Shown: in pieces, positions 3,628 through 64,000 of the stretch
Layout of the letters: each line of letters begins with the position of its first letter
Position numbering within the stretch: the first letter of the stretch is position 1
Assembly: GCF_910592395.1 (NCBI RefSeq)
Contig: NC_088310.1
Location: 10,423,501-10,487,500, forward strand
Origin: Lineus longissimus
Taxonomy: Eukaryota; Nemertea; Pilidiophora; Heteronemertea; Lineidae
Reading direction: 5' to 3'
Length of the DNA: 64,000 nucleotides
Position numbers and translations under genes: made by a program
The notes under the pieces: generated by a model
What the model saw: the letters and a program-made list of their open reading frames with translations, nothing else
Told to the model about the DNA's origin: nothing
The model's database searches: none

Positions 3628-3632
3628 TGCCA

Positions 3633-3783
3633 TGTTTCGTCAAGCAAGAAAATCGATGAGAAGACACAGTGAGGAGATAATTTGCCGGCTAGAATCTAAC
3701 AACTTTATTCAAGACATGTGTAAAGTAAACTACATTGACGACTTCCGAGTGGGCCGTGGCCCAACCGAAGACACCACGCAACA
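3633..3783 (-). repeat. Ty3/gypsy 3' LTR
   Basis: 151 bp, identical to the 5' LTR. Preceded on the minus strand by the polypurine tract. Confidence 0.92.
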
Positions 3784-3827
3784 TCCTTCCTCTTTTGAGG
3801 AAAGGAAACGCAGAAAGTTTGTACTAA

Positions 3828-3970
3828 CTAATGAAACTGATAATCCACTATATAGCGCGGAAAGTCTTAACTAACTACTAATGAAACTGATAATCCACTA
3901 TAATATAGCGCGGAATGTCCGTATTAACTAATGAAACTGATAATCCACTACATAGCGCGGAAAGTCTTAA
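3828..3970 (-). repeat. Three-copy minisatellite inside the gypsy 3' untranslated region
   Basis: Three units of about 50 bp share CTAATGAAACTGATAATCCA followed by CTATATAGCGCGGAA (copies begin near 3828, 3878 and 3928). It lies between the integrase stop and the polypurine tract. Confidence 0.8.
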
Positions 3971-3997
3971 GTGTACCCTACTATTGGTGAACACAGA

Positions 3998-5095
3998 TCA
4001 CAATTCTAAACGGTCCACAGGTTTAATGACTCTACCAGAACGCGTAGTACGGATAGCCGGAGTTTGGGTTACGCTTTGCTCAGTGTTGGCCTTAGCGGGC
4101 GTGTCACTTGCGGCACTTGACACCATTGACCTATCATTGCTCGTCATGATCTCCGCATCCAGTTGTTCATTGTTCAATTTTTCAGTGTTCGAATCGTCAG
4201 AGTTTGGCTTTGGACTTGGCCTCACAGGGGTTGACTCCAGGGATGTCGCGGTTGCAGTAGGCAGCGATGGTTTGAACCTTAGCTGTTGTCGATTGCGCAC
4301 GAGAGTTTTGCCTAGAGCGGTGACCTCATTCGTGCGAGACTTGAGACGTTTTGCGACAGTTGCCGGACGCCACTCAGTTTGACCAAACTGAGTCGGCTGA
4401 ATGCGAACATGGTCACCAGGCTTAAGCGGCTTAAGGTCATGGCGACCACCATTACGCTTCTGAGCCATGTTGAGTTTACGATTTTCCATACGTTCCTTTT
4501 CTCCTGATGGCAGGCGAGGGAGGAGCCTGTCTTGGGTAGAAGGTATGAGTGTTTTTGTGCGGCGCCCGAGGAGTCGCTGAGAAGGGCTGGACTGTAGGCC
4601 TTCCGTTGGGGTGTTCCTGATGTTGAGTAGCCCCAAGTAGGGGTTCTCCTTGGCTGCTTTGGACTTTGTCAACAGTTTCTGAGCCACCTTCACGGCGGCC
4701 TCTACAGCACCATTAGCCTTTGAGTTACCTGGGCTAATGAACTCGTGTGTGAACGACCAGTTGGTGCTGAATCGCCTGAACTGATCAGACGTGAACTGTG
4801 TTCCGCGGTCCGAGACTAGAATGTCTGGAATGCCATGCCTAGCAAAATGCATTTTCATCTTTGCAATGACGGTGTCTGCGGTGATATCATGGAGGTAATC
4901 CAGTTCGAAGAATGAACTAAAGTAGTCAACCGTAACGAGATAGTTTTTCCCTTTGAAGGAAAACAGGTCACTTGCAACCTTGGACCAGGGACGGTCCGGC
5001 ACATCATGCAAGTTCAGAGTCTCTGGGGGCTGCTTGTCAGCGAAGGTGGCACAGGTATCACAGGTTTCGACAAACGACCGGATCTCCGCCGACAT
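3998..5095 (-). pseudogene. Integrase core of the Ty3/gypsy element
   Basis: Holds the second cysteine pair of the zinc finger (CDTC), then the DDE core: WSKVASDLFSF, VSDRGTQFTSDQF, and NSKANGAVEAAVK supply D, D and E. A basic chromatin-proximal tail follows and ends DRLEL. It is out of frame with the RNase H part by one base, so it cannot be made as one polyprotein in this copy. Confidence 0.88.
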
Positions 5096-5123
5096 GCCTG
5101 GCCAGAAAATGAGTTCCCTGGCT

Positions 5124-5684
5124 CTACGTATTTAAGCAGGAGTTTATGCCTAAGTGGCCGGCGTGCAACTTAGCCTTTAGTTCCTTCCGCAGTTCCAAGG
5201 GGATAACGATACGTTCTCCACGCAACACAACGCCATCCTGCACAGTTAGTTCATCGCGGTGATGGAAGTAGGGGGTCAGGGTGACAGACAGATTATGCTT
5301 AGAGTCCGGCCAGCCTTTCAAGATGGTGTCTTTGAGAGACATCAACGTTGCGTCCCTTTCAGTTGCACGACGGATTTCATCAAGTCTTCGTGGCTTGATG
5401 GGCAAGAAAGACACAATGCTCACGTTAACCGAGTCCATTGAGTCAGTTTCGGGAAGTGGCGCGCGAGACAGCGTGTCTGCAATAGGGATGGAGGTTCCAG
5501 GCTTGTAGGCTAGATTGATCTGATACTTCTGAGTCCTTAGAAGGAGCGACTGTAGCCGCCTGGGCGCTTTACAGAGCGGTTTCGTGATTATTGACACTAG
5601 CGGCTTATGGTCAGTTACCACATCTACCATGCGGCCGTAGGTATAATGGTGGAACTTTTCCAAGCCAAAGACCACAGCCAGCAT
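5124..5684 (-). pseudogene. RNase H and integrase zinc-finger part of pol, cut off by stop and frameshift
   Basis: Continues the frame of the upstream polyprotein after the TAG. Shows the RNase H region (EKEMLAVVFGLEKFHHYTYG, then VVTDHKPLVSI, then KYQINLAYKPG) and the start of the integrase HHCC finger (HAGHLGINSC). It ends at TAG (5126-5124) because of a shift of frame close to this point; the rest of integrase is in another frame. Confidence 0.85.
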
Positions 5685-5897
5685 CTCTTTCTCAATTTGG
5701 GCCCAGCGTTGTTCAGTCTCGGTAAGCGATCTGCTTGCAAATGCGATTGGGCGGCCACCTTGGAGCAGGACAGATCCAACACCATGTTCACATGCATCGT
5801 TTTCTAGCAGGAGTTCCTTGGTTTGATCATAGAATGCCAGAACAGGGGCTTGAGTGACAAGGCGCTTTACAGTTTCGAAGGCTGTTTGTTGAGTCTG

Positions 5898-8117
5898 CTA
5901 CCAGACGAACGGCACATCTTTTTTTGTGAGATTGCGCATAGGTGTCGTCACCTCAGTCAGATTAGGGAGAAATTTTGCGAGATAGTTTGCCACTCCCAGG
6001 AAACGTCGCAGTCCCTCCAAGTTAGTAGGAGCGGACATGCTCTCAACAGCTCGCACTTTCTCTGGATCAGCCTGTAAACCACGTTCAGTAACCATGTGTC
6101 CCATGAAAGTTATCTCAGATAATCGCAGTTCAAGCTTTGCAATGTTTAATTTGATCCCTTTCTCCCGACAGCGTTGTAGGAAAGCTTCCAGGTTGCGATC
6201 ATGTTCCTCAGTGTTCCTTCCATGAATGACGACGTCATCGGCGATGCATTCGACTCCAGTGAGCCCGTCGATGGCTTCGAGCAATTTCCTTTGGAAAATC
6301 TCAGACGCGACAATCAAGCCAAAGGGTAGACGCTTCCACCGGTAACGACCAAAAAGAGTCTGAAAGGTGGTGAGGAGGCTCGACTCCTCATCTAGTTCGA
6401 CGTGCCAATATCCTGACGATAAATCGAGCTTGGAGAAGACTCTCGACTCCGCCAAGTTGTGGAGTTTGTCTTCCAGTATCGGTAGCTGGAAGTGTTCACG
6501 TTTCAGTGCACGGTTGAGTGGCCTCGGATCGAGGCAGATGCGGAGTTCTCCAGATTTCTTTTCAGCTAGGACAAGTTGGCTGACCCAGGGAGTTGGTTGC
6601 TCAACTCTGGCAAGCACATCAATGTCAGATAAACGCTCGAGCTCTGGCCTAAGCTTAGCAAGAGGTGCCACTGGTATGCGGCGCGATGGTGTTACAACAG
6701 GCATAACACCTCCATCAACTTCCAGGTGCACGGTGCCTGGGAGTTTCCCAAGCTTGCCGTCAAACACATCAGCAAACTTGTCTAAAACGCTCACAGCTGC
6801 GATGCGTTCCATAATGGAGTCATTGACCGTGACGAGTTTCATCCCTTGCGCAGCCTTGAGACCAAGAAGAGGCATCAGGTTCTCCTTTACAACAACAAAC
6901 TCAACTGAGTAGCGCTTACGGTTTTTTGGATTACCAACCACAAGCCTACACGATCCTACCGGGTGAATTTCACTGCCGTTCCACATTTTTAGGCGTTTCG
7001 TTGTGGGAGAAAGCTCAGTATGAACAGCCAATCGTAGAGGAATCAAGTTGACGGACGCTCCAGTGTCCACCTGGAATGTGACTTCCTGTCGGGAATCGGT
7101 CAACATCATCCGGCATCGTACATCTTTCGGTGAGTGACCATTACCAGGTCGAATAGAATCAATCCACTCACAGTCATCATCACCTAGCTCAGAGTCCTCA
7201 TCTAGGAGTTGGTTTACTTTCTTGGTTTTGCCCTGCTTTGTACACTTTGCGGCAAAATGGTTCAGACCTTGGCAACTTCGACACGATTTGCCCCACGCAG
7301 GACATTCAGATTTGCGCATAATGTGAGTACGACCACAAAACTTGCAATCTCTAGCAGTTTGAGATGGTGTAGCACCAGTTTTCTGAGTCGGTGGCGCCAT
7401 CTTAGACTTAGTGCGGTTTTTGCTAGAGCGCTTCACAAAGTTTACCGATGAGTCAGCATTCATGGCCTTTTCATGGGCCTCCGCATTCTCTGACGTTTTG
7501 CATATTGCGATGCAGCCATCCAGGGTCAGGCCACGCTCCCGCAGCAGTCGCTTCTGAGTTTCACGATCACTTATGCCAAGGACTATTCGATCCCTCAAGA
7601 TAGAGTTCACAGTCTCCTTGTGATAATTGCAAGTCTTCACTAGCAACCGAATAGCAGCAAGAAATGTCTCGAAAGTTTTATCAGTCTTTTGATTCCGTTG
7701 ATTGAAGACAAATCGTTCAAACGTTTCGTTGATTTCTCCAAAGGCGAAGTTATCAAACTTAGCCAAAACTTCGTCAACAGTACGCTCGTCTTCCTCAGTT
7801 TCAAACTGGAAACCATTGTAGATCCTCAGACCGTCGTCCCCAAGCGTATGCAGTAGTAAGGCAACTTGATATGCTCGGGTCTGCTTGTCAAGGTTCGTAA
7901 TGATCGAGTAATTCGTCCACTTTTGCTTGAAAATTTTCCAATTTTCAGCAGAGTGCCCCCCATCCAGGTTTGGAGGTTGAGGGGATTGAGGGGGACGGAT
8001 TCCATGCATAGGGGCAGGATCACGGGGGGCAGCTGCAGCAGCAGCAACAGGAGGCTCAAACATAACTGCAGCAGCTTCTCGGAGAATGAAAGTTGGCAGC
8101 GACCTTGATCTGTACAT
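5898..8117 (-). CDS. Gag-protease-reverse transcriptase of the Ty3/gypsy element
   Basis: 739 codons. Gag occupies about residues 50-240. Two CCHC-type zinc knuckles lie near 258-292 (CKFCGRTHIMRKSEC and CRSCQGLNHFAAKC). The aspartic protease has DTGASVNLIP at about 351. Reverse transcriptase covers about 500-660 with LPFG and the catalytic IADDVVIHG at about 625-633. The start could be the Met at residue 1 or the Met before EPPV at residue 19. The frame stops at a TAG (5900-5898) in the linker before RNase H; reading continues in the same frame afterwards, so this is a nonsense change rather than a natural end. Confidence 0.9.
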   Translation of the reverse strand: MYRSRSLPTFILREAAAVMFEPPVAAAAAAPRDPAPMHGIRPPQSPQPPNLDGGHSAENWKIFKQKWTNYSIITNLDKQTRAYQVALLLHTLGDDGLRIYNGFQFETEEDERTVDEVLAKFDNFAFGEINETFERFVFNQRNQKTDKTFETFLAAIRLLVKTCNYHKETVNSILRDRIVLGISDRETQKRLLRERGLTLDGCIAICKTSENAEAHEKAMNADSSVNFVKRSSKNRTKSKMAPPTQKTGATPSQTARDCKFCGRTHIMRKSECPAWGKSCRSCQGLNHFAAKCTKQGKTKKVNQLLDEDSELGDDDCEWIDSIRPGNGHSPKDVRCRMMLTDSRQEVTFQVDTGASVNLIPLRLAVHTELSPTTKRLKMWNGSEIHPVGSCRLVVGNPKNRKRYSVEFVVVKENLMPLLGLKAAQGMKLVTVNDSIMERIAAVSVLDKFADVFDGKLGKLPGTVHLEVDGGVMPVVTPSRRIPVAPLAKLRPELERLSDIDVLARVEQPTPWVSQLVLAEKKSGELRICLDPRPLNRALKREHFQLPILEDKLHNLAESRVFSKLDLSSGYWHVELDEESSLLTTFQTLFGRYRWKRLPFGLIVASEIFQRKLLEAIDGLTGVECIADDVVIHGRNTEEHDRNLEAFLQRCREKGIKLNIAKLELRLSEITFMGHMVTERGLQADPEKVRAVESMSAPTNLEGLRRFLGVANYLAKFLPNLTEVTTPMRNLTKKDVPFVW

Positions 8118-8282
8118 CCACTGTACGAATGCACACGATTTGCACTATGCTGGTACACCCTGTGTAGCTGAGCACTGCGCGGTTTGGCCGGTACTGAGAG
8201 TTCGACTTTGGCCTCGATCACGGTCAGATTCTATATTTCGACAGCATTGAGAGTTGTTTGGAGTTCTTTACAGCTGTCACCA

Positions 8283-8433
8283 TGTTTCGTCAAGCAAGAA
8301 AATCGATGAGAAGACACAGTGAGGAGATAATTTGCCGGCTAGAATCTAACAACTTTATTCAAGACATGTGTAAAGTAAACTACATTGACGACTTCCGAGT
8401 GGGCCGTGGCCCAACCGAAGACACCACGCAACA
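8283..8433 (-). repeat. Ty3/gypsy 5' LTR
   Basis: 151 bp, TG...CA, identical to 3633-3783. As the element is on the minus strand, this is the 5' LTR; the interior continues to lower coordinates with TGGTGACAGCTGTAAAG as primer-binding site. Confidence 0.92.
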
Positions 8434-8446
8434 TGCCATATCCTTC

Positions 8447-18500: not shown

Positions 18501-21500
18501 AGCCGTATCAGTGATACGCATAATTAACTGCCGAAAGTGCCTGAATTAAGACATCACCTTCAAAATAGGCAAGAGTGCCTTTTTAGGTTACAACAAAGAC
18601 GGATTAGTTCAAAAAACCTTTAACGTAAAAACCAGAAATATAACCTTTCTTTCGGCTGCTGTAGATCAGGCACCAGTCTACCGATTCAGACGATTCGTGT
18701 ACCACGGAGCTGCATTTGCTCTTTACTACCCCAATGGCATTTACTTCTTAGTCTTTCAGTTAAGTAATTCATCACCATGTTGCATTATGTGTACAGCTGT
18801 TTTTACAACTGAGCCCAATTTTGAGGCAATGGTCCTGTTGTGTTCTTTTATCCCCCTATTTGCCGCAAGTGTACACACAAATGAATAAGTTGCCATGGTA
18901 GAGCTTACGCCAATCCAGTGGGTGGGTATTAATATGGAAATTAGCAATAATAACTCACAGTGTTTAAAACTAGAATCTACTTTGATTAGTTTCCTTTTGT
19001 ACTTCTCAACAACATGGTTGCAAGTAATACATGTGAAAACGTTGTAGTGTGTGCATGAAGTAGTATTCGGTGGATAAGACACATTTGATGCAGGCGTGTC
19101 AGTTTATAATTTATCATGACCGTGATCTATCTGTCATCCCGCAATCATTTCAGGCCAGGTAACCATTGAAATGTGATTCCTTTCTATTGTATTGTTAGAA
19201 CTGTCCAAAGTCTATGGTCCTAAAATAATATGAAATAAAATAAAGAATGATGTTTGCTAACTTATCAAAAATATATCTGGGTCAGTAACAAATATTGAAT
19301 AAATGAAACAATCTTTGAGGTTGACAAATCTTTCTAATTATGAGAAACAAAAGAATTTTTTGGTGCAAAGAATAAGCAACCCTGTTGACTTTCTCTGCCC
19401 AAAACCTTATCAATGCGTGAATAAGGGTCATTGCTAGGGCAAGCTGTCATTTTGCAGAAAAAAATCACCTACATGTAGATAGTTTATGAGTAAGTGGTGA
19501 TTTTATTTGCAGCTTTTTCAATTTTTCTAATGGGCTTAATCATGAGGTTTTGAAAGGAACCAGTTTTGGACCCAACTTGCACTGAGGGCTAATGTACGGA
19601 CATGGGAATAGGCCTACAAATTTATATGTTAAAGCATATGACAAATCTGTGGCATTTCCAGGAATTTTATTAGATAATCCTGAAGTATGGTGACTTTTAA
19701 CAGCCAGCATGGCCACGAACAGCGTTGTAAGAGCTTGGTGAAATGACATGTTATTCATATTACATGACTTTTCCATTCATCGATGGTTTGCAAACTTTAT
19801 GCCACTTGTATAGCCGATAAGGCCTACCAGCAATCTTACAGCAAGTTGGTGGGAGAAGTTACGTGCGTTGGTGTCGTGGTATATATGCAAATCAATCTAT
19901 GGGCGCTCTATTGGAATATTTGGCACTTTGTACTCCTCATGACTATCACACTCACTCATTGTAGCGGCAATGATATATTTAGTCGTTGATAATCATGCCG
20001 TGGCTTGTTTCATCCACCCTTAAATTACCAGAAGACAACACCAACAAGCTTGATTTCATTTCCCATCTATTCACCACGTAATAAACTGAAAGATACAATA
20101 ATTGAACAACAACTAAGTACATATTCGTAACAACAAAGAGACAATCGTGGAAGACAATAGTACATCCACCAGGAGGACAGGAAAACCTGTCACAACACTG
20201 TCCTCAAGGAAGTGGAGACACCTGACGATTGAATATTGAACTAAAATATTCATAAAATAGACTGAGATAATGCTACTAAAGTCCACATTGCTGCCCCAAA
20301 ACTTGATGTTAACTACAAACAAAATTATTAAGATGAAGAGCTCCAATACCGAGCTACCTCACAGAGACGATAGATTGAACACATCACGATATAATCAAGT
20401 ACTAGCCAGGTTGAGATGTCCGAAGTGGTGTAATGAAAGAAATGTCACCGAGAATATTAAATCTATACTTGATCTAAAAAACAAGCCACTAAGTTCTCCT
20501 AAGTTCTTGTCATCACAGTAAAGGAAATTATTTCTATTCTAGACATATTAGTTACCTTTGCAAGGCCCTTAAATTCTCTATAAAACTTTCGGGGATGAGG
20601 CAAATTCACCCATTTGATGGACCAAAAATATGGAAGATTCTGGATCTTAACAATGGCGGCAAAAGCGATAACACGAGGAGAAAATGGGTGGAGCCATCTA
20701 CAAAGCTTAAAGGCTGGCTACAACCAGTAAAAACAAGATTCACCCAGAAACAGACTGGCCACAGTCACTCTCATGACAGGCAGTTTTGGCCAAAAACAGA
20801 TGTGTATATATGTCTTCTGGTGAAAGCATTCCTTAAAGGGTAACTTGTGTCAAATTTCACCATATAATGTTTTAGCTGTTTTTAACAAATGACTACGTCA
20901 CTTTCTCATAAACCGGTAAGGTTTTCGAATCGAAATGCACATTTTCTAGAAATTGATGGTTTTAATCCCGCCCGGACGGCTCGCTTCGATGCCGTTGAAA
21001 TCGCGCTAAGCCGACGACGTTTTCGTTGATGACGTCACAAAGGAATAGAGAGGTACATCCCACAAAAGACCACTAGACAATCCAACAAAAACCCTGGATC
21101 ACCAGAGAGATAGTAAAGCTCCTTAAGAAGGCAAAACACCTCAACAAGAAGAGGCAGAAACAGCCCAGCCACAAGTCAACCCATGAACATCAGCAACTGA
21201 GGTCGACCATCCAGCGCAAGATACGCCAAGCTTACTGGGCGTACCTCAATAAGATCCTAACCCCAGAAACCGACAGCAACGAAGATCACAGCAAAGCTAA
21301 TAAGCGATTCTGGGGGCTGATCAAGCACACTAAAAGGGACAGTGTGGGCATACCAGCACTTCGTGATGACCAGGGCCATACAGTAATGGACAGCAAAGGC
21401 AAAGCAGAAGTGCTAAACAAGAAATTCCAATCTGTCTTCAATAAGATCACGCCCCGTCCCCTAAACAGACATGCAAAAACATCATCGGACTTGAGAAGAA

Positions 21501-24500
21501 AAAGAAGATGGCAAACATCTTGATAACACCTAACGGTGTTCTCAAACTCCTGCAGGGCCTCAAACCAAACAAGGCTGCCGGCCCCAACCAGCTGAGCCCC
21601 AGGGTACTGCAAGCCATAGCAAGTCACATCGCCCCAACCCTCCAAGATATCTTCCAGAAATCGCTTGACTCTGGTGACATCCCAAAGGACTGGAAGGAAG
21701 CAAACATTGCCCCAGTATTCAAGAAAGGCAGGAAAGACGACCCAGGGAACTACCGCCCAATCTCCCTCACCTGCATCTGTAGCAAGCTCCTGGAACACAT
21801 CATCACCAGCCAAATGATGCAACACCTTGAGGAGAATGACATCCTACATGAGAAGCAACATGGCTTCAGAAGCAAGCGCTCATGCGAAACCCAGCTGATC
21901 GAATTTATAGACGAAGCCCATAGAGCAAGGAAACGCATTGATGCCATCGTCATGGATTTCAGCAAGGCTTTCGATAAGGTCTCCCACACCCATATCCTAC
22001 TCAAACTGGAAAGGTATGGGATTTCCTCACAGGTCAGAGAATGGATTAAGAGGTTCCTCACTGACCGTTCTCAGAGAGTAGTCGTCGAAGAGGAAATGTC
22101 AAACCCTAGACCAATAACATCAGGTGTTCCCCAAGGATCTGTCATTGGACCAGCCTTGTTCCTAGTCTACATCAATGACCTCCTGGAAAGCGTGAAGTCA
22201 CAAATACGCCTATTTGCAGACGACACCATCATATACAGGGTTATCAGAAATGCAACAGATGAACAACAACTGCAACAAGACCTCCGATCCCTTGAGACCT
22301 GGGAGAGAGAATGGATGATGGAGTTCCATCCGCAGAAATGCGTAGTCATCAGCATAACCAGAGGAAGAAATCCATCCCACCTAGAATACTACCTGCATGG
22401 CCACCGGCTGGACTCAGTTGACTCTGCAAAGTATCTTGGACTAACCATAACAAAAGACCTGAGGTGGAACAAACACACCATCAGCACCACCAAGAAGGCA
22501 AACTCCACCCTAGCTTTTCTACGAAGGAACATCAGGACCCCGAACCAGGAAGTCAAGACACTGGCCTATAAGACCTTAGTACGACCCAAACTTGAATATG
22601 CTGCCCCGGTGTGGGACCCACACACTGCACAAATGAAACACCAGGTCGAAATGGTCCAGCGTAGAGCAGCGAGATGGGTTACCCGGCGATACAACAACAC
22701 CTCAAGTGTCACTGACATGCTCCAAACACTTGGGTAGGTAACCTTAGAGGAAAGAAGACGTCAATCCCGAGTAATCATGATGTACAAGATCCTGCACCAC
22801 CACGTAAAAATCGAACACATCCTTGCCAGGGCCACCAGACTCCCCGAGAACACGGTCTCTGCCAAGACCCTCGACTCCTTCAGGCACAACCTGCTGAGGG
22901 AGCCAGTCCAACCATAGCCAGGCCACGTGATCGAATGTTTTTATCCTGCACCTTGAACTACCTTTTATCCAACTGCGATTTTAACACCAGCACCTTTTAC
23001 CAATGACAAAGATTTTAAACGCATGCGCCTGGACGTAAAAGTCTCTATAGACTGTGTTCCAGTATTGAAAAGAAGAAGCCACAACATGAACATTTTCGAG
23101 GTCGCGGTGGTTTACATTCCCGCGAAAAAAAAAATCTCATTCGTTTGGGCAGAGACATGTATTCATCCACAGGCGGAAGTGTAGCACATTCCATGCTATT
23201 GAACAGAAATCCAAAAATCGAAACTGATATGTAATGTGCAGGCCAATCCATAGGGCCTAGTGTTGTATGTGATATACTTCATGCCTATGAACTGTACTAT
23301 AAGTTGATGTAGGGCCTTACATGCAGTCAGATTCAGAATTAGTCATTTTATTTCAGACTCTTTTACTGGTTGCAGTATCCTGCAAGACCCGAGTCCTGTT
23401 AGTTCGCTTCGCAATCTCATTGAGGCACAGATGCATCAGATCACTCTTCAAGGACAAGGCTGTAGGCCTATCGGCACGATACCTCCTTATTGAGAATGTG
23501 ACCAAATTAACATCTATTATCTGTTGAGATGGATTCATAACAAAGCATGTGAACATTTTTTCTCTCTTTTTAATGAATAAAACATATTTGCTGGATTTCA
23601 ACGCATTCATAGAGTATAAGTGCAGACCCTGGGGGCATTGGGCACCAGAGCCAATGATAACATGTGCCACTATATTGTTATTTCTGATTACATATATAGT
23701 CCTTGTATAAAACAAACAGTGCTCCATAGTATTAAGCCATATTTGACAAATTATTAGCTCTTGAGTTTGGTTTAGCTTTAGAATGAAAAGGTGGGCGCGG
23801 CACATTCAGATATAGCTTTGAGTAGATGAACTCCTCAAATTTCTTTAAAAGTCAATATCATATAAAACTTTCTGTTGCAGACTGTTGTGAACATCTAGGG
23901 GAATCTGGAAATGGCAGAAATTCTGATCTGGGGTCAAAACTGGCTCACTACTAGGGCAGAGACATGTATTCATCCACAGGCGGAAGTGTGGCACTGACAC
24001 ATAGTCCGTACTGAACTGTAAAAATGTGGTAAATACATGACACATAGTCCGTACTGAACTGTGAAAATGTGGTAAATACATGACTGTGATGGGTGAAAGT
24101 TGATTTATTCTTCAATCTTTGGTGGATTCTTAATCTACAGAGCCAGGCCATAACAGGGATATACTTTTTGATAATTAATTTAAGGAAATATTGTCTCACT
24201 GGCCAGTTTAGAACTTGTATTCTAATAGGCCCATATCAGTCCGCGAGTGACGATTTGATGGCAATGCTGTACACAAATCAATTTTTCTCAGGTAATCGGT
24301 ATTGGAATGTTTTGAATTTTTACTATCATTTCGGTAAAAGCCTCTTCATAACACATATAAAATTTGGTGGGAATTAAAACACCCTTGGTGTACTTTTTTC
24401 ACCAACCGATGTTCATTAAAATGTACACAGAATGTACACGCTGGCTAATAGAGGTCTCTGGCCATTTATTTACAACTGCCATTGACCATTGACATTCCAT

Positions 24501-33595: not shown

Positions 33596-36500
33596 ATGCA
33601 ACGACTCCCATTAATGCTATTCGGCATTTTGGTACACCTGGTAATCAGCCAAGTGTCGGCGGCAGGTATGTCATCAGTTCGTAAAGCGACTCGCAGACGC
33701 ATAGTTTGCATGCAATATATCAATCGCTTGTCTGCAAGAGTCATTGCCAGAGTCAGTCGTCGGGACCTGCGATAAATGTAAAACCCAGGGATGACCGATT
33801 TGATGAGTGTGGTCTGATAATGATCGTTATAATAAAAAAAGACCCGGTGTAATATATGTGAGTGTTTCTGTTTTTGAGTGTTTCCTCTCATTGTTTGGGA
33901 ACGCTCAAAAATAGATTGACAAGTTTTTCTGTGTATCCCCCCTATTGAAAAGTCGTGGTCTCTCTAGCTGCCTATTGTTTGGAAACACTGACACATGGGG
34001 AACAACCACAGATGTTACACCGGCTTGACCTCTGCAGTCCAAAAGAGGCCTGTGTATTTCTTCTGGAATAGTGATTTGAAATGCCGAAGACTTTAAAATG
34101 AAAGTTATTCTAGGGTTCTATGGGTAGGGAAAATATCAGGTGATCTAAAAAGAAAAACTCATATAAAATTAAACTCCCGCTTTTTAAAGTACAATAAAAA
34201 TGCAATAAAAATGAAATTATTGAAAATTTGCACTCTTGTGGCCACTGATATTATCAAAGACAGATTACTTCAAAAAACCCACAGCTTAAAAATCAGAAAT
34301 ATACCCTTTCTTTCGGCAGCTGTAGATCAGGCACCCGTCGACCGATTCAGACGATTCTTGTACCACTGATTATGAGCTGCATTTGCTCTAAACTAGATAA
34401 TCCCTCGTGCAAGCATGAATCATTTCGACCTACTGTGAGATGTGAGAGCCCCCTGTTGGCGGCTTTGTGTAACTTTACCTTGCATCCCTATATTGTCCCT
34501 TTGAACAATAGTTCCATCAGTTCATGCATGGAAGAAGAGGCTTTGGGTGGTATCGCAGCAGGATGGTGAACCAATTCATCACTAAATGCAATTTGCATAG
34601 GTGACTACACGCAACGATTTTGACGGGCATTTCTTTTAGGCCGGGTCTATTTGGCAAGCCGCTCGCCGAACAGGCATCTTTTTTTGTTCTGTTTGGAGAG
34701 CCGCTTGCCAAACAGCACTAAAAAGCCACCCTGTTCGGCCAGCCGGGCTTGCCAAACAGGTAAAAAATCTACCCTGTTTGGCGAGCTGGAGACTTTATAC
34801 TTTAATATTAATGAGTTCGGCTCTCCATTCAGGACAAGAAAAAGTCGCTGTTTGGTAAGCCGGGCTTGCCAAGTAGTCACTTCCTATCTTTTATTTGACA
34901 TTACATGTACTTAAACATTAAGGGGAATATGAAAATAAAGTAGGAAAAGTTCATGCATGGAAGAAGAGGCTTTGGGTGGTATCGCAGCAGGATGGTGGGC
35001 CAATTCATCACTAAATGCAATTTGCATAGGTGACTACCCGCAACGATTTTGACGGGCATTTCTTTTATTTGACATTACATGTACTTAAACATTAAGGAGA
35101 ATATCAAAATGAAGTAGGAAGAAATATAGATTAGGAAATGCATGCATTTTCATCAGGATAGACACAGATCCTTTTGAGATTCTGGAAAAACATTTGGTCT
35201 TTAGCGAGCATATTTGACACAACATTTTGATTTTGGAGTATATCTAAAAGTATATAAATGTGTTACTTAAAATTCAGAATTACGTAAAAAACAATTAGGA
35301 CCTGTCGTCCAGTAATTAACATATAATACACTGGATATCTTGGTAGCCATAGTTGTTAACAACCCTGAACGTTCGGTGCCTTTTTTGACCAGCCGATATA
35401 TGCTGCTGCTAATTTTGCCGATGTACCGTGAAACGATATCATACCAACGGTGCCTTCGTTCGTTTAACCTTAATACTCCTGCGTTTTGTCTCTCGCTCAT
35501 AAATGAAGAGTAATTCGAGATATGGGCTTACGTGACGTACAGTAGTGTCTGGGGACCGAGGAGGTAGTTGATAAAGCTTGGAATCGATGAAACCTTGGAA
35601 CCAGTGATAAACCTTGGAATAGTCAGTACTAAACCGTAGAATCACTGTGCAAGTACCGTGTGAAATCGGGTGCGTTCCTTCCACGATTTATACCCTTCCA
35701 ACTGCCAATCTCGTCCCAGCTGACTTTATTGATAGCAATTTGCCAGTAGTTCCAGAAACCACCTTTTTGTGGTGGATGACGTCATCATGGAATGCATTTA
35801 AAATGCGTTGTTTTCGTTAAAATATGAACTTATATTCATGACGGGCCGCAATTGCAAATATCTAATGATTTCTTTTCAATGAAAGCAAAAGAAAGGTTTT
35901 GTGATTGTTTTGTATTCCATATACTAAAATAAAACGTTTTTATTAGAAGAATCATTTTGTATATAATGCTCTGATTAAGCTTGGTAGATAGGACAAACAT
36001 GCACACGGGAATCACTAAAAAATGTGTCCGCTTATGTAGTGGTGGCATCATTCCTACTAGCCCAGGCTAGAGGGAAATTCCCTTTAGCTCAGTCGGTAGA
36101 GTGTTGGCCTTATAAGCAAGAGGTCCCGGGTTCAATCCCCGGTTGGACCTTGATGTTTTTCCTCTGTTACATTTGGCGCCCAACGTGGGGCAAGGGTACT
36201 AATAATTTGTTTAGATGCGGGTGTGTCTTTGGATAATGAATTAACCCTTTGTATCACGGAAGAACCCGGTTGTGAGGACACAACTTTCCCAAACGGGGGA
36301 GTATGTAGTGGTGGCATCATTCCTACTAGCCCAGGCTAGAGGGAAATTCCCTTTAGCTCAGTCGGTAGAGTGTTGGCCTTATAAGCAAGAGGTCCCGGGT
36401 TCAATCCCCGGTTGGACCTTGATGTTTTTCCTCTGTTACACTTAGAACTGGTGACATCAGGGAAAGATATCTATATCCCTCGATGTGTACATGAAGATGT

Positions 36501-37380
36501 GCAAAATCGCTCACAGCGAAGGAATTTGTTCACATTTTTCATCTCCAAACCCGGCTAAAACCTTCGGTAATAAATCTGCATCTACGTTTCTTGTCATGTT
36601 AAGATGATGTACGGATAAATGCCAGCCGGTACTGCATGATGTAGTCAATCTTCTCTGTATCACCCTGTATGATCACACCGCTCCGTAGTGGAAATAGGCC
36701 CCGTGTGTTGGCGTAGTAAGCGGAGCGCTGATTGGTCCATATAATGGGTGTGTGGTGGGCGTTACGTGTCGTGCATGCCCATATTTGGGAGATCAGTAAT
36801 GTACACTTGAGGCGAGGTATGACTGGGTTGTTCTAAAATATAGATTGTTGAATCGGATATGCGACTGATTTCTAAACTACCGTCAAATTCCGATCTGATC
36901 ATGAAAAAATAATCTCCAAATATTGATTCGTAACCACCTTAGGTTCCAATCGCATTATTTCATGTTTTTATGCATTTTTAGGACTGATTCCAAGGTTTAT
37001 CACTGGTTCCAAGGTTTCACTGATTCCAAGCTTTATCAACTACCGACCGAGGATTCAATTATGCGCTTTTGTTTATAAGGTAAAGATGCGCGTGTGCAGG
37101 TGCGTGTGCATGACTGCAACTCCGGGACAAACGAGAAGTTAACAGAGTTCTCCTACAGATGGTGCATCGGGTTTGCATTCACGTGCATTAGTGTCGACTT
37201 AGCATTCTCTCAATACACTTCTCTTTTAATGCGTCCTTTTTTGATACATACATTCCAGAACTAGAAGACGATGAAATAGATCATGCTTTCGAAGCATTCG
37301 TGAAATGGCGCACCAACAACCGTGGCTTCTGGGCTGAACCACGTAAACCGGACTTCAGTCTCTTGAAGAAGTGGAGATAG
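33596..37380 (+). CDS. Two-exon gene for a 63-residue secreted peptide
   Basis: Exon 1 (33596-33665) encodes a signal peptide of 23 residues (MQRLPLMLFGILVHLVISQV then SAA) and ends GCA G|GTATGT in phase 1. Exon 2 (37259-37380) follows acceptor acatacattccag and reads from phase 1: acidic start ELEDDEIDHAFEAFVKW, then RTNNRGFWAEPRK, and ends LLKKWR with TAG. AATAAA lies 70 bases after the stop. The mature part is about 40 residues, has no cysteine and contains a KK dibasic pair near the C-terminus, so a neuropeptide-like or antimicrobial-like product is conceivable. I do not recognise it. An acceptor (ctctgatttcag) just before the ATG suggests an upstream 5' UTR exon. Further phase-1 exons inside the 3.6-kb intron cannot be excluded. 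Confidence 0.6.
34255..34395. repeat. Dispersed repeat shared with 18605-18720
   Basis: Direct copy in the same orientation, about 110 bp. Confidence 0.65.
34425..34506 (-). mobile_element. Partial MITE of the ACTATAGGCAG family
   Basis: Contains AAGCATGAATCATTTCGACC and the right-end block TAACTTTACCTTGCATCCCT then ATATTGTCCCTTTGAA. Only one end is present. Confidence 0.5.
34518..35120 (+). repeat. Tandem duplication, unit about 174 bp, first unit interrupted
   Basis: AGTTCATGCATGGAAGAAGA through AAAATAAAGTAGGAA or a variant occurs twice. The first unit carries the hairpin element at 34639-34886; the second (from about 34948) is uninterrupted. Confidence 0.8.
34639..34886. mobile_element. 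248-bp hairpin-array element with 7-bp TSD
   Basis: TCTTTTA flanks both ends (34632-34638, 34887-34893) and occurs once in the uninterrupted second unit. The interior is four to five palindromic units built on CTGTTTGGCAAGCC and GGCTTGCCAAACAG. No coding potential. Confidence 0.65.
36035..36171 (+). repeat. TRIM left LTR
   Basis: Starts TGTAGTGGTGGC and ends CTCTGTTACA. It contains the hairpin CTAGCC-CA-GGCTAG, a near-palindrome AGGGAAATTCCCT, the tRNA-like module and a T5 run. Identical to the right copy over all 137 bases. Confidence 0.9.
36074..36160 (+). ncRNA. tRNA-like Pol III unit in left TRIM LTR
   Basis: A box TAGCTCAGTCGG fits TRGYNNARNNG. B box GGTTCAATCCC fits GGTTCRANYCC. A TTTTT terminator follows about 20 bases after the B box. 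The T arm is perfect (CCGGG/CCCGG). The anticodon region CTTATAA reads UAU, but the anticodon stem has a mismatch and the acceptor stem does not pair, so this is a tRNA-derived promoter, not a working tRNA gene. Confidence 0.75.
36174..36191 (+). promoter_or_regulatory. Primer-binding site, tRNA-Lys(1,2)
   Basis: TGGCGCCCAACGTGGGGC is the exact complement of the last 18 bases of animal tRNA-Lys(1,2) including CCA, as in several vertebrate retroviruses. It lies two bases after the left LTR. Confidence 0.9.
36304..36440 (+). repeat. TRIM right LTR
   Basis: Same 137-bp sequence as the left LTR, without a single difference. Followed by CTTA, the target duplication. Confidence 0.9.
36343..36429 (+). 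ncRNA. tRNA-like Pol III unit in right TRIM LTR
   Basis: Identical copy of the module in the left LTR, with the same boxes and T5 terminator. Confidence 0.7.
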
Positions 37381-40414: not shown

Positions 40415-43400
40415 TATATATATTTATTTATTCCTCCTATGCAGAAGAAGATATACAAAATAGTATACAATAAATTTAACAGAGTGTATGAGAAGTGAGT
40501 GCATTATTTACAGGTAATTTGGTAATTAATTGAGTGAGCTGGTTAATACCAGCACTCCGCTGCAATTGGCAGCAATGACATGTTGTCTACTAGGTCGCAG
40601 CCAGGTATTTGCTTACCTAGCAATGTCTCTGTTAGATCATAGTCATTCATGTTCCACAGTGCCGCGGACACCTCTACAGAGCATTCGTCTACGGCTCTTT
40701 CCCAGAATAGGTCTCGCTTTACCGCGAGACCCGAGCACTCGCAGAAGAGATGTCGTGGTGTGTCCGTGTATGCGCTTTTACAATGTGAGCAATATATAGG
40801 CTCTTGCAATATGACAAATGTATTCAGCTTTGCAAGAAAAGCATATCTATGTTTACTCCTCGGGTCCTTTTGGGCGGACAGCCAGAGGAGGGACGGAAAG
40901 TCCAACGTTTTCTCAATGTTCAGAATTCTGGTTAGTTCGCAGTCCTTGTTACACGCGGACACGAAGTTAACATTTTCATGAGTCTCTATGGCTAATCGTA
41001 CAGTCGATTTCCAGACGGATTTGTGAGAGAAAAGAGCTGGGTCCGTGGCGGCTAGTTCTAAGTAATCCGATAGATGATATTTATATAATGTGTCCCTGAG
41101 CAAGGGAACATAGCCAATGCACTCCTTACTGCGGGTAGTTCTGTCCTGCATGGATAGGTACCTGAGTCTGAATACCGTCCACGGGAGTTCGCATGGCGCT
41201 TTACTTAAGGCTACAAGTTGACCAAGGAACTGGAGACGTCTAGCGTCCACTGAAGATTGAATACAATGGCTCCCGATCATTGCTTGAGCCACTAAAGTCC
41301 TAGTCATTCTCGGAAATCCTTGCATCCTTTTCAAGCAAAAGCGGTGTGCCCTTTCGAGGATCATCGTTTCGCGCGCAGACAGATTGTCCCAAATTTCACT
41401 ACCGTAGAGCGCTCGGGGGAGGCATACGGTGCAGTAGAGTTTGAAAGACGAGGCTGGATTAAAACCAGAAGGTTGAATCCCCGGACCTAGGATGCACATT
41501 AACGTATTTTTCAGCTTCTGGGCGGCGGCTATTACTTGCCTCAATGGCTTGGAGTGCTTATCCTGGGATACCCCAAGGTGCACACAAACATCTGTTTCCC
41601 TGACGGGTTTGTTACCCAAGTGCCAATTGCGGAGTGGCTTCGCTCGTTCCCACTGTCTCACGCTTTCACCGAATACTATTATCAGGCACTTTTGTCCATT
41701 GTAGTCGTATCTCCACTTAATTGCATACTGGTCACAGCACCCCATCATGCCGTCTAATCCAAACTTTGAGAGCGATACCAGGGTGAGATCGTCCGCGTGG
41801 CAAGGCGATCCACAGTTCACGTCTTCGATTTTAGCACCGACATCTAACTGATCTAGGTTGTCAAGAAGTTCGTTGATGTAGAGTAGGTACAACCAGGTTG
41901 AGAGTACACCACCTTGTCTGACAGACTGTTTTAGCGCAAACCACGGGGACATAGTATTACTGACAATCACGCAACTTTCAGCATCCACATAGCAGTTTTT
42001 GGTCAAGCGCCAAAGCTTGCCTTGCACCCCAAAATTAAAAAGCTTGTAGAAGAGCCCGTTATGCCAGACGGTATCGAAGGCTTTGGATGTATCCAAGAAG
42101 CACTCGTACACTTTCGAGTTCCTTTCGAGATTGTGACGGATTGTTTCCTGGAGCACGAAGGCAGTGGATACACAACTGCGCTTCTTTTGGTAGGCACTTT
42201 GCTGGCGATTAGGGAAAACTATATTGTTGTCTTGCGTCCATCGATTCAGTTTCTCTAGCATCAGTTTTTCTAACAGTTTGTACAGAACAGGTAGCAACGT
42301 TATCGGACGATAACTCCCTGGTTCGGCCCGATCCTTTCCCCCACCCTTATGTATAGTGTGGATAACTCCTTTCTTGGCACTGGCCGGTACATGCTCAGAT
42401 GTCAGTATCACGTTAAGGAGATTTGTGAGCGTTGTATGGAGGATGCGACCTCCATATTTGATGTGTTCGTTCGTAAGGGAATCGTGACCTCCTGCTTTCC
42501 CACACTTAAGTCCACGAATCGCGCGCGTAACTTCCTCAAAAGAGAAAGGGTGGTCGAGGCCGTCTATATGTATCTGCTTTGACCTTTCGTCCATGTCTTG
42601 CACTGACCTGTCTACGTCACACCTAAACGTTTCATCATATCTCAGGTCGCATTTCGGAGAATAAAGCTCTTCAAAATATGCGGCCCACTTATTCGCGATG
42701 TCCGAAGTGTCATAACACATTTCCCCTTTGAAGCGCATAGGGGGAGGGGGCCTGTTTGGCGTAAGTTTACGGCTTTTTAGCAGTCTCCAGAATTTGTCCT
42801 GGTCTACCTCGGCAAGCTCGTCCAGTTCTGCATAGAAATTCGCCTCCAAGTCGGCATTCTGCTTTCGCAGAGCCGCTCTGAAAGCCCGTTTGGCCTCTTT
42901 GTACAGTTTGAATTCCTCCGAGTCCGCGGATCTGGGTTTGTCTGCTTGCACCCACAGGTGGCGTGCCTGTTTCATTTGCTGATAGATAGGCTTGAGTTTT
43001 TCATTCCAGTTCGGTCTGCACTTCTTACGCGAATTCCTCCGTTTGGGAATGGAGAGATCAGCTGCGGTCCCACCACCCTTGATGCTTTTGCGTTTGATTG
43101 GTTCGGAAGTCGGACAATCGTCTGGCCGGACTGCTTTAGCCTTATCGGACAGCCATGATCTAAACAGATCTATCTGCACAGTGTTCTCTCCTGTCAGCTC
43201 GAGTAATCTTTCGACGTACGAGTCTTTAGGGAGGTTTGAGAGTTCTCCTTGAAAGTGGCCGTACCAGGCCTGATCAGCGGGTATATCGCCACTTTCGCCA
43301 TTGTCGGACCACATGGATGCCTGTGAGGAAACCGAAGGAGAATTTAACTCCTTTGAAAGTCCTTCTGGCGTGAGATCTGCGTTGCTCTCAAAACTCATTG

Positions 43401-43500
43401 TGACATCATTAGATTCCTCACCTCTAGTTGTTTATATTCCGGTTGAAGACGGGTAAGATAGTCCTCGCTATGTTGGGTTATCCGAAGAAAACTAACACCG
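40415..43500 (-). mobile_element. Non-LTR retrotransposon with intact RT reading frame
   Basis: The 951-codon coding frame (43398-40543) is followed by about 125 bases of 3' UTR and an AT-rich tail (GAATAAATAAATATATATAT) that ends at the border of a DNA transposon. No endonuclease coding region is seen upstream, so the 5' end is probably truncated; its exact position is unknown. Confidence 0.8.
40543..43398 (-). CDS. LINE reverse transcriptase polyprotein, 951 aa
   Basis: Uninterrupted. Order: an N-terminal linker (about 1-250) with a basic stretch KKCRPNWNEKLKPIYQQ, reverse transcriptase (about 285-560) with LKCGKAGGHDSL, SYRPITLLPVLYKLLEK, FLDTSKAFDTVWHNGL, SVRQGGVLSTWLYLLYINEL and HADDLTLV, then a thumb/connection region, and a C-terminal knuckle CSHCKSAYTDTPRHLFCEC. 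The first residue of the YADD box is His; both Asp are kept. The apurinic endonuclease that normally precedes this part is missing. Clade assignment (CR1, Jockey/I or Ingi) is not certain. Confidence 0.88.
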   Translation of the reverse strand: MSFESNADLTPEGLSKELNSPSVSSQASMWSDNGESGDIPADQAWYGHFQGELSNLPKDSYVERLLELTGENTVQIDLFRSWLSDKAKAVRPDDCPTSEPIKRKSIKGGGTAADLSIPKRRNSRKKCRPNWNEKLKPIYQQMKQARHLWVQADKPRSADSEEFKLYKEAKRAFRAALRKQNADLEANFYAELDELAEVDQDKFWRLLKSRKLTPNRPPPPMRFKGEMCYDTSDIANKWAAYFEELYSPKCDLRYDETFRCDVDRSVQDMDERSKQIHIDGLDHPFSFEEVTRAIRGLKCGKAGGHDSLTNEHIKYGGRILHTTLTNLLNVILTSEHVPASAKKGVIHTIHKGGGKDRAEPGSYRPITLLPVLYKLLEKLMLEKLNRWTQDNNIVFPNRQQSAYQKKRSCVSTAFVLQETIRHNLERNSKVYECFLDTSKAFDTVWHNGLFYKLFNFGVQGKLWRLTKNCYVDAESCVIVSNTMSPWFALKQSVRQGGVLSTWLYLLYINELLDNLDQLDVGAKIEDVNCGSPCHADDLTLVSLSKFGLDGMMGCCDQYAIKWRYDYNGQKCLIIVFGESVRQWERAKPLRNWHLGNKPVRETDVCVHLGVSQDKHSKPLRQVIAAAQKLKNTLMCILGPGIQPSGFNPASSFKLYCTVCLPRALYGSEIWDNLSARETMILERAHRFCLKRMQGFPRMTRTLVAQAMIGSHCIQSSVDARRLQFLGQLVALSKAPCELPWTVFRLRYLSMQDRTTRSKECIGYVPLLRDTLYKYHLSDYLELAATDPALFSHKSVWKSTVRLAIETHENVNFVSACNKDCELTRILNIEKTLDFPSLLWLSAQKDPRSKHRYAFLAKLNTFVILQEPIYCSHCKSAYTDTPRHLFCECSGLAVKRDLFWERAVDECSVEVSAALWNMNDYDLTETLLGKQIPGCDLVDNMSLLPIAAECWY

Positions 43501-61643: not shown

Positions 61644-64000
61644 TAATATGTAAAGTCAAGGTCTTAGTGAGCCCCCCTTTAGGTCGGGGGAGCTCCCCCG
61701 AACCCCCTACGAGCATATGTTAAGTGCAAGCTCTAACAACTACAGCTGTTACAATGGGGGGACATCCCCAAACCCCCCTCCGTCGACATAGGTTTTTACC
61801 AGTGCGTTGGGGGGAAGCTCCCCCCAAACCCCCCCGGTGGACAGTCAACTAGCCTTTCTGTGTCATACTGCTGGAGGGGACCATCCATATCGTTCCTTCC
61901 GACACATTTTTGTTTTGGTAATGTAATACATTGTGATTGTCCTTATTCACGGGAATCGGGCGTTTCCAGTGATATACGACACTTAAATGGATTGTCCTCA
62001 TGCATTCACTTTGGAAACGCATTTTAAAATAGATGTTACGACCTGTTAATGGGGCACGTCATCATCGCGTACATTTGGGAAAAACTCCCTAACGAGACCG
62101 GAGCAGACGGCTGAAAGTAGTTTAATTATTGGCCACTAGGGTTCAGAATGTCGCTCACCCGAATTTTTCACGCAACTTTTGCTAAATAGAGCTAGTTCTA
62201 GTTTGTAATTCATTTGACCAATATAACTTAGTCGTCAGTGTGGTTTTAAGCAGGAAAAACGTATTTGTTTTTCTTAAAGTGCCTTTTTTGGACGGGTGTG
62301 TGCGATTGTTTTGTTTATGTCACGTGACCTCGACCATGTCGACACAAAATTGATATAAAACCACCTTTTCTGTCATTATTCATGACGGATATTTCTCTAA
62401 TAAAAATATCAATATAATTGGCCAATTTCTTAGGCATATGTAGCGAATTCCCATGAAGATTTAAATTAGATGTTCTCGTAACCTGTTACAACTGGTCTGA
62501 TTTATAATTCAGCGCTACAACTGGTCTGATTTATTTATTGAGCGCCATTTTGAAAAACCAAAAAAAATTGTTTGTTGGATATACAATATTTACTCTCTTT
62601 ATTTCACTTCATTTACATTATATACTCCCGCACACACGTGTATCTTAAGAGCCCCTCCTAAAGGGGGTCTTAATATGTAAAGTCAAGGACTTAGTGAGCC
62701 CCCCTTTAGGTCGGGGGAGCTACCCCGAACCCCCCTACGAGCATATGTTAAGTGCAAGCTCTAACAACTACATCTGTTACAATGGGGGGACACCCCCCAA
62801 ACCCCCCTCTGTCGACATAGGTTTTTACCAGTGCGTTGGGGGGAAGCTCCCCCCCCGCCGGAGGACAGTCAACTAGCCCTTCTGTGTCATACTGCTGGAG
62901 GGGGGGGGTGCGATGGGACCATCCATATAGTTCCTTCCGACACATTTTTGTTTTGGTAATGTAATACATTGTGATTGTCCTTATTCACGGGAATCGGGCG
63001 TTTCCAGTGATATACGACACTTAAATGGATTGTCCTCATGTATTCACTTTGGAAACGCATTTTAAAATAGATGTTACGTCCTGTTAATGGGGCACGTCAT
63101 CATCGCGTACATTTGGGAAAAACTCCCTAACGAGACCGGAGCAGACAGCTGAAAGTAGTTTAATTATTGGCCGCTAGGGTGCAGAATGTACGCCGCTCAC
63201 CCGAATTTTTCACGCAACTATAGCTAAATAGAGCTAGTTCTAGTTTGTGATTCATTTTGATACTTCAGATTTGGGCAGTAGACCAATATAACTTAGTCGT
63301 CAGTGTGGTTTTAAGCAGGGAAAACGTATTTGTTTTTCTTAAAGTGCCTTTTTTGGACGGGTGTGTGCGATTGTTTTGTTTATGTCACGTGACCTCGACC
63401 ATGTCGACACAAAATTGAAATCAACCACCCTTTTCTGTCATTATTTAGGACGGATATTTCTCTAATAAAAATATGAATATAATTGGCCAATTTCTTAGGC
63501 ATATGTAGCGAATTCCCATGAAGATTTAAATTAGATGTTCTCGTAACCTGTTACAACTGGTCTGATTTATAATTCAGCGCTACAACTGGTCAGATTTATT
63601 TATTGAGCGCCATTTTGAAAAAACCAAAAAAAATTGTTTGTTGGATATACAATATAGTTACTCTCTTTATTTCTCTTCATTCATTTACATTATATACTCC
63701 CGCACACACGTGTATCTTAAGAGCCCCTCCTAAGAGGGGGGCTTAATATGTAAAGTCAAGGACTTAGTGAGCCCCCCTTTAGGTCGGGGGAGCTCCCCCG
63801 AACCCCCCTACGAGCATATGTTAAGTGCAAGCTCTAACAACTACAGCTGTTACAATAGGGGGACACCCCCCAAACCCCCCTCCGTCGACATAGGTTTTTA
63901 CCAGTGCGTTGGGGGGGAGCTCCCCCAACCCCCCCCCCCCCCCCCGGTGGACAGTCAACTAGCCCTTCTGTGTCATACTGCTGGAGGGGGGTGCGATGGG
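61644..64000 (+). repeat. Tandem array, unit about 1.03-1.07 kb
   Basis: Units begin TAATATGTAAAGTCAAGG at 61644, 62671 and 63744; the third runs off the window. Each holds the palindrome GGGGGAGCTCCCCC or a variant, C-rich blocks, and the doublet CAACTGGTCTGATTTAT. Units are about 95 percent alike by eye. Confidence 0.88.

Follow-up and report, generated by a model that had tools for sequence, protein, structure and literature searches.

A Helenus-type TRIM in Lineus longissimus with a predicted tRNA-derived Pol III promoter in its LTRs

The element and its surroundings

The window analysed in this study, which is the whole stretch of 64,000 nucleotides taken from contig NC_088310.1 of the nemertean Lineus longissimus, contains a TRIM of 406 bp at 36035–36440. 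The element is made up of two LTRs, a non-coding interior, a primer-binding site (PBS) and a purine tract (Table 1). The LTRs begin with TG and end with CA, and the two copies, 36035–36171 and 36304–36440, are of 137 bp each and identical at 137/137 positions, as evidenced through blastn and repeat comparison; the direct-repeat agreement at an offset of 269 bp runs from 36033 to 36171 with zero mismatches. As the LTRs are identical, this copy probably moved recently. Two bases open the interior and the PBS follows directly. The element has no coding capacity, with none of the six frames open for more than 67 codons. No further copies or solo LTRs were found in the window (blastn of LTR and interior, E 0.01), and there were no exact matches to three LTR/junction patterns in the viral contigs searched, or to two patterns in the prokaryotic contigs searched; these exact-match results are uninformative on relatives, as the two collections cover viruses and prokaryotes and may omit genomes close to that of the window.

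Table 1. Features of the TRIM, with positions given in window coordinates.
Feature	Position	Strand	Basis
5' target-site duplication (TSD), CTTA	36031..36034	.	sequence
5' LTR, 137 bp, TGTAGT...GTTACA	36035..36171	+	identity to 36304–36440
tRNA-like module, 5' LTR: D arm, anticodon arm and T arm; no acceptor stem	36085..36142	+	RF00005, 39.6 bits, E = 7.4e-5
A box, TAGCTCAGTCGG	36085..36096 (5' LTR), 36354..36365 (3' LTR)	+	sequence
B box, GGTTCAATCCC	36129..36139 (5' LTR), 36398..36408 (3' LTR)	+	sequence
T5, putative Pol III terminator, 5' LTR	36156..36160	+	role inferred; read-through needed for full template
Internal domain, 132 bp, non-coding	36172..36303	+	longest stop-free stretch 67 codons (six frames, whole element)
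Primer-binding site, TGGCGCCCAACGTGGGGC, 18 nt, tRNA-Lys1,2 type	36174..36191	+	label Lys,1,2 carried by this 18-nt sequence in a table of PMC1084362
Polypurine tract (PPT), GGGGGAG, two bases ahead of the 3' LTR	36295..36301	+	sequence
3' LTR, 137 bp	36304..36440	+	identity to 5' LTR
tRNA-like module, 3' LTR	36354..36411	+	RF00005, 39.6 bits
T5, 3' LTR, proposed 3' end of template RNA	36425..36429	+	role inferred
3' target-site duplication, CTTA	36441..36444	.	sequence

The TRIM lies between two inverted arms of 58 nt (35563–35620 and 36987–37044), which are 97% complementary and 1366 nt apart. Enclosure of the TRIM at a distance by these arms suggests that it inserted into an older inverted-repeat transposon; the arms probably mark the two ends of that DNA transposon, which would measure around 1.1 kb.

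Other mobile sequences are present in the window. A Gypsy-type LTR retrotransposon lies on the minus strand at 3630–8434, bounded by direct repeats of 155 bp (3630–3784 and 8280–8434) that are 100% identical, and has ORFs of 748, 257 and 377 aa, measured stop to stop. The Gypsy label was read from its protein matches, and the Gypsy-like ORF finds its best match in P0121, a protein of the window itself, with 100% identity across 96% of the query length. This element was considered as the partner of the TRIM copy and rejected, with the bases that follow its LTR, TGGTGACAGCTG, not forming a Lys-type PBS; as its PBS differs, it is not an obvious mobilizing partner. The minus strand at 40543–43431 holds an ORF of 962 aa for a LINE-like reverse transcriptase, and its residues 12–122 match the first 111 residues of L. 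longissimus P0045, annotated as TPR-like, at 107/111 positions, which suggests that this gene model was fused with a piece of a LINE. By eye, a second reverse-transcriptase-like ORF of 430 aa was seen on the plus strand at 21445–22737. Toward the end of the window (61672–63989) there are families of direct repeats with spacings of around 1.02–1.09 kb and two to three copies each.

The tRNA-like module in the LTRs

A preliminary description of this DNA had placed an A box, a B box and a T5 terminator in each LTR, and all three are found in both, at the 269-bp offset that separates the identical LTRs. Its range of 36074–36160 is correct for the 5' copy but omits the copy in the 3' LTR. The tRNA covariance model, with which a scan had been proposed there, matches both modules (Rfam RF00005, 39.6 bits against a gathering score of 29, with E computed for 64 kb against 4227 families). 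No other Rfam match in the window exceeds its gathering score, and of the seven listed with E up to 5, none but these two is to the tRNA model. The alignment covers model positions 8–63 of 71, and the acceptor stem is therefore absent from the module. The description of that stem as unpairable agrees with the two of seven pairs that can form between the flanking strands, 36078–36084 and 36143–36149.

The gap between the A box and the B box is 32 bases. The window has two instances of an A box with a B box following it within 90 nt, one in each LTR of the TRIM, and any such pair was seen in only 3/200 dinucleotide-preserving shuffles of the window (mean 0.015). The two modules are, however, copies of one event via reverse transcription, and thus represent a single observation and not two independent matches. 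Within the module, the sole non-standard pair is one G-A mismatch in the anticodon stem, and the anticodon loop reads CUUAUAA. No tRNA gene was reported by ARAGORN in its bacterial setting, and no cloverleaf was seen by eye in the lowest-energy RNA fold of 36072–36160. Two palindromes, CTAGCCCAGGCTAG (36057–36070) and GGGAAATTCCC (36072–36082), were noted by eye in the U3 part of the LTR, directly upstream of the A box.

A search for 5S rRNA with Rfam gave no match up to E = 1 in 35900–36700, and none in the whole window at a limit of E = 5. On its sequence features, the module is well explained as a tRNA-type Pol III promoter carried inside the LTRs, equivalent to the 5S module of Cassandra but of tRNA origin, as had been proposed in the preliminary description.

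Relationship to Helenus and to other small elements

TRIMs with tRNA-like sequence in their LTRs have been named Helenus, and the term TRIMp3 has been proposed for TRIMs with a Pol III promoter (Kojima, 2024; PMC10886601). Judged by that published description, the TRIM is almost certainly of the Helenus type, that is, a non-autonomous LTR retrotransposon with a tRNA-derived Pol III promoter in its LTRs. Four features of Helenus were tested and all four were found, namely the TRIM build, tRNA-like LTR sequence with both boxes, a 4-bp TSD and a tRNA-type PBS. The box motifs given for Helenus, TRGCY...YGG for box A and GGTTC for box B (PMC10886601), are present in TAGCTCAGTCGG and GGTTCAATCCC, alongside the RF00005 match in both LTRs. 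The length of the element is within the overall Helenus range of 311–1263 bp, a PPT is likewise shared, and the CTTA on both sides of this one copy agrees with the 4-bp TSD of Helenus in animals (PMC10886601). The PBS is complementary to a tRNA 3' end, with its Lys,1,2 label taken from PMC1084362 and not from the tRNAs of this worm, and tRNA-Lys is among the primers published for Helenus of hymenopterans, vertebrates and bivalves (PMC10886601). The absence of an evident functional tRNA is a further likeness to Helenus as portrayed in that paper. No difference from Helenus was seen, in a comparison made by description and not letter by letter with the nemertean consensus sequences. The 5S rRNA sequence that marks the LTRs of Cassandra was not found in these LTRs.

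SINEs have no LTRs. Those derived from tRNA (SINE2) share with the TRIM an internal Pol III promoter of tRNA origin, but have no PBS or PPT and are mobilized by non-LTR retrotransposons (PMC10886601). Cassandra of plants also has a Pol III promoter and terminator in its LTRs and an RNA that extends from the 5' to the 3' LTR module, but differs in its plant host, in using 5S rRNA where a tRNA is used here, and in its R of 18 bp compared with the ∼89 nt proposed here (PMC10886601). Ajax, known from L. longissimus and Notospermus geniculatus with lengths of 421 and 434 bp, likewise has the promoter of a small-RNA gene in its LTR, but its promoter is of the 5S type, its TSD is of 5 bp and its primer is tRNA-Leu (PMC10886601). 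The biv-TRIM of bivalves is also a small animal TRIM, but a canonical PBS was not unambiguously identified for it, and the term 'polymerase III' is absent from the main text of its description (PMC6934838).

The preliminary description had gone further and held that such an element would be a second, independent case of a retroelement using Pol III within its LTR. This does not hold, as the literature of 2024 already contains Helenus, with tRNA sequence, and Ajax, with 5S rRNA sequence (PMC10886601). The nemertean Helenus hosts in Table 1 of that paper are L. longissimus and N. geniculatus, and the TRIM is therefore a copy of an already published kind, very probably in an already published host species. 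Among the open-licence papers searched, none on these tRNA retrotransposons was found beyond Kojima (2024), and the others that contain the term TRIMp3 are, judged by title, not about transposons. In Kojima (2024), experimental validation of the Pol III activity of Helenus is described as still awaited (PMC10886601).

Transcription and mobilization of the element

The piece of tRNA gene at both ends of the element probably borrows the tRNA-transcribing machinery of the cell. The mechanism favored here, in which one Pol III template RNA would be copied by the enzymes of another element, is as a whole considered fairly likely. TFIIIC would bind both boxes in the 5' LTR, with Pol III starting near 36072; as a rule of thumb, Pol III starts a dozen or so nucleotides upstream of the A box. 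The polymerase would sometimes pass the T5 at 36156 and stop at the second T5 (36425–36429). The resulting RNA of ∼358 nt would be composed of R (∼36072–36160, 89 nt), a U5 of 11 nt, the PBS, the interior, the PPT, a U3 of ∼37 nt and again R. Only 11 nt of LTR remain 3' of the T5 in both LTRs. If Pol III ran past the first T5 and stopped at the second, both termini of its RNA would fall inside the module, and R would thus be present at either end. A tRNA-Lys on the PBS would prime the first strand, R would permit strand transfer and the purine tract would prime the second strand, whilst the tRNA-like part would serve as promoter and not as tRNA. Reverse transcriptase and integrase would be supplied in trans by an autonomous element, probably a Gypsy as has been proposed for animal Helenus (PMC10886601).

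The same logic has been given for Cassandra, in which transcription begins within the 5S part of the upstream LTR and finishes within the 5S part of the downstream one (PMC10886601), and Cassandra arrays in plants give multi-unit transcripts that read through the intervening LTRs (PMC7215508). Read-through of Pol III terminators has been documented in yeast, where tracts of 5U and 6U are weak (PMC4937561); in this animal, passage of the T5 is a proposal. The T5 in the 5' LTR may, however, halt much of the transcription, which counts against the mechanism. Between the two T5s (36161–36424) there is no run of four or more T; selection against such runs was considered as support for read-through and rejected, as 298/1493 T-matched windows and 1565/5000 shuffles also have none. 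That the element belongs to an unreported nemertean Helenus family, with a single all-Pol III template and an R set by leaky termination at the T5, appears rather unlikely; under that reading, transcription would have to run through the T5 of the 5' LTR yet stop at the identical T5 of the 3' LTR, and one weak terminator would balance abortive, tRNA-sized RNA against the full-length genome.

The preliminary description had also held that a different transcript, and hence possibly a second polymerase, would be needed for the part of the element past the T5. Two polymerases are not required, as one Pol III RNA extending from the 5' module as far as the second T5 would contain everything that reverse transcription needs. 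With two, Pol III would make an RNA of ∼85–90 nt that ends at the first T5, and the template would be a Pol II transcript from a cryptic U3 promoter or from host read-through. The presence of the T5 in the 5' LTR fits such a division of labor. In animals, a T5 can be an efficient stop for Pol III. The element also ends ∼0.8 kb upstream of a stretch that looks exon-like by eye, and host-gene read-through is therefore possible. Against this, neither AATAAA, ATTAAA nor a TATA motif occurs in the 406 bp, so that the LTR shows no visible signal that would fix an R region or the 3' end of a Pol II transcript. The density of A[AT]TAAA on the plus strand of the window is 1.55 per kb, and the LTR of the Gypsy-type element, taken as a control, has one AATAAA and no TATA motif. 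With ∼0.6 A[AT]TAAA expected by chance in so short an element and no TATA motif in the control LTR either, the absence of these motifs is near chance expectation, which the two-polymerase explanation can accommodate, and lends Pol III weak support. Overall, a second polymerase appears rather improbable.

The module may alternatively be a relic of a SINE that once inserted into the LTR and has since been hitch-hiking without promoting transcription. An insertion of a SINE has been proposed by Kojima as the origin of such LTRs, and conservation around the boxes was reported in the same paper (PMC10886601); the lost acceptor stem would suit a relic, and such conservation would not. Both boxes here are intact, only one pair in the module is non-standard, the identity of the LTRs points to a probably recent move of this copy, and there is no sign of another promoter, making a relic quite improbable. 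That the tRNA-like part instead makes a functional tRNA, which would be Ile-UAU by its anticodon, or the element's own primer, is extremely improbable. The anticodon loop would allow for such a tRNA, and a few bivalve and fungal Helenus families could encode one (PMC10886601), but the two of seven acceptor pairs, the lack of a call by ARAGORN and the G-A mismatch in the anticodon stem argue against it. As to a primer, the module and the complement of the PBS have no words of at least 6 nt in common, and no such PBS complementarity was found in Helenus by Kojima either (PMC10886601).

LTR retrotransposons are ordinarily Pol II units, and those that carry a Pol III promoter break this rule. Such elements can also inflate the tRNA predictions made for a genome, as reported in rust fungi (PMC10886601). 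This compact copy with identical LTRs would be a convenient template for examining whether the tRNA-type boxes drive transcription and how an RNA could pass the terminator in the 5' LTR.
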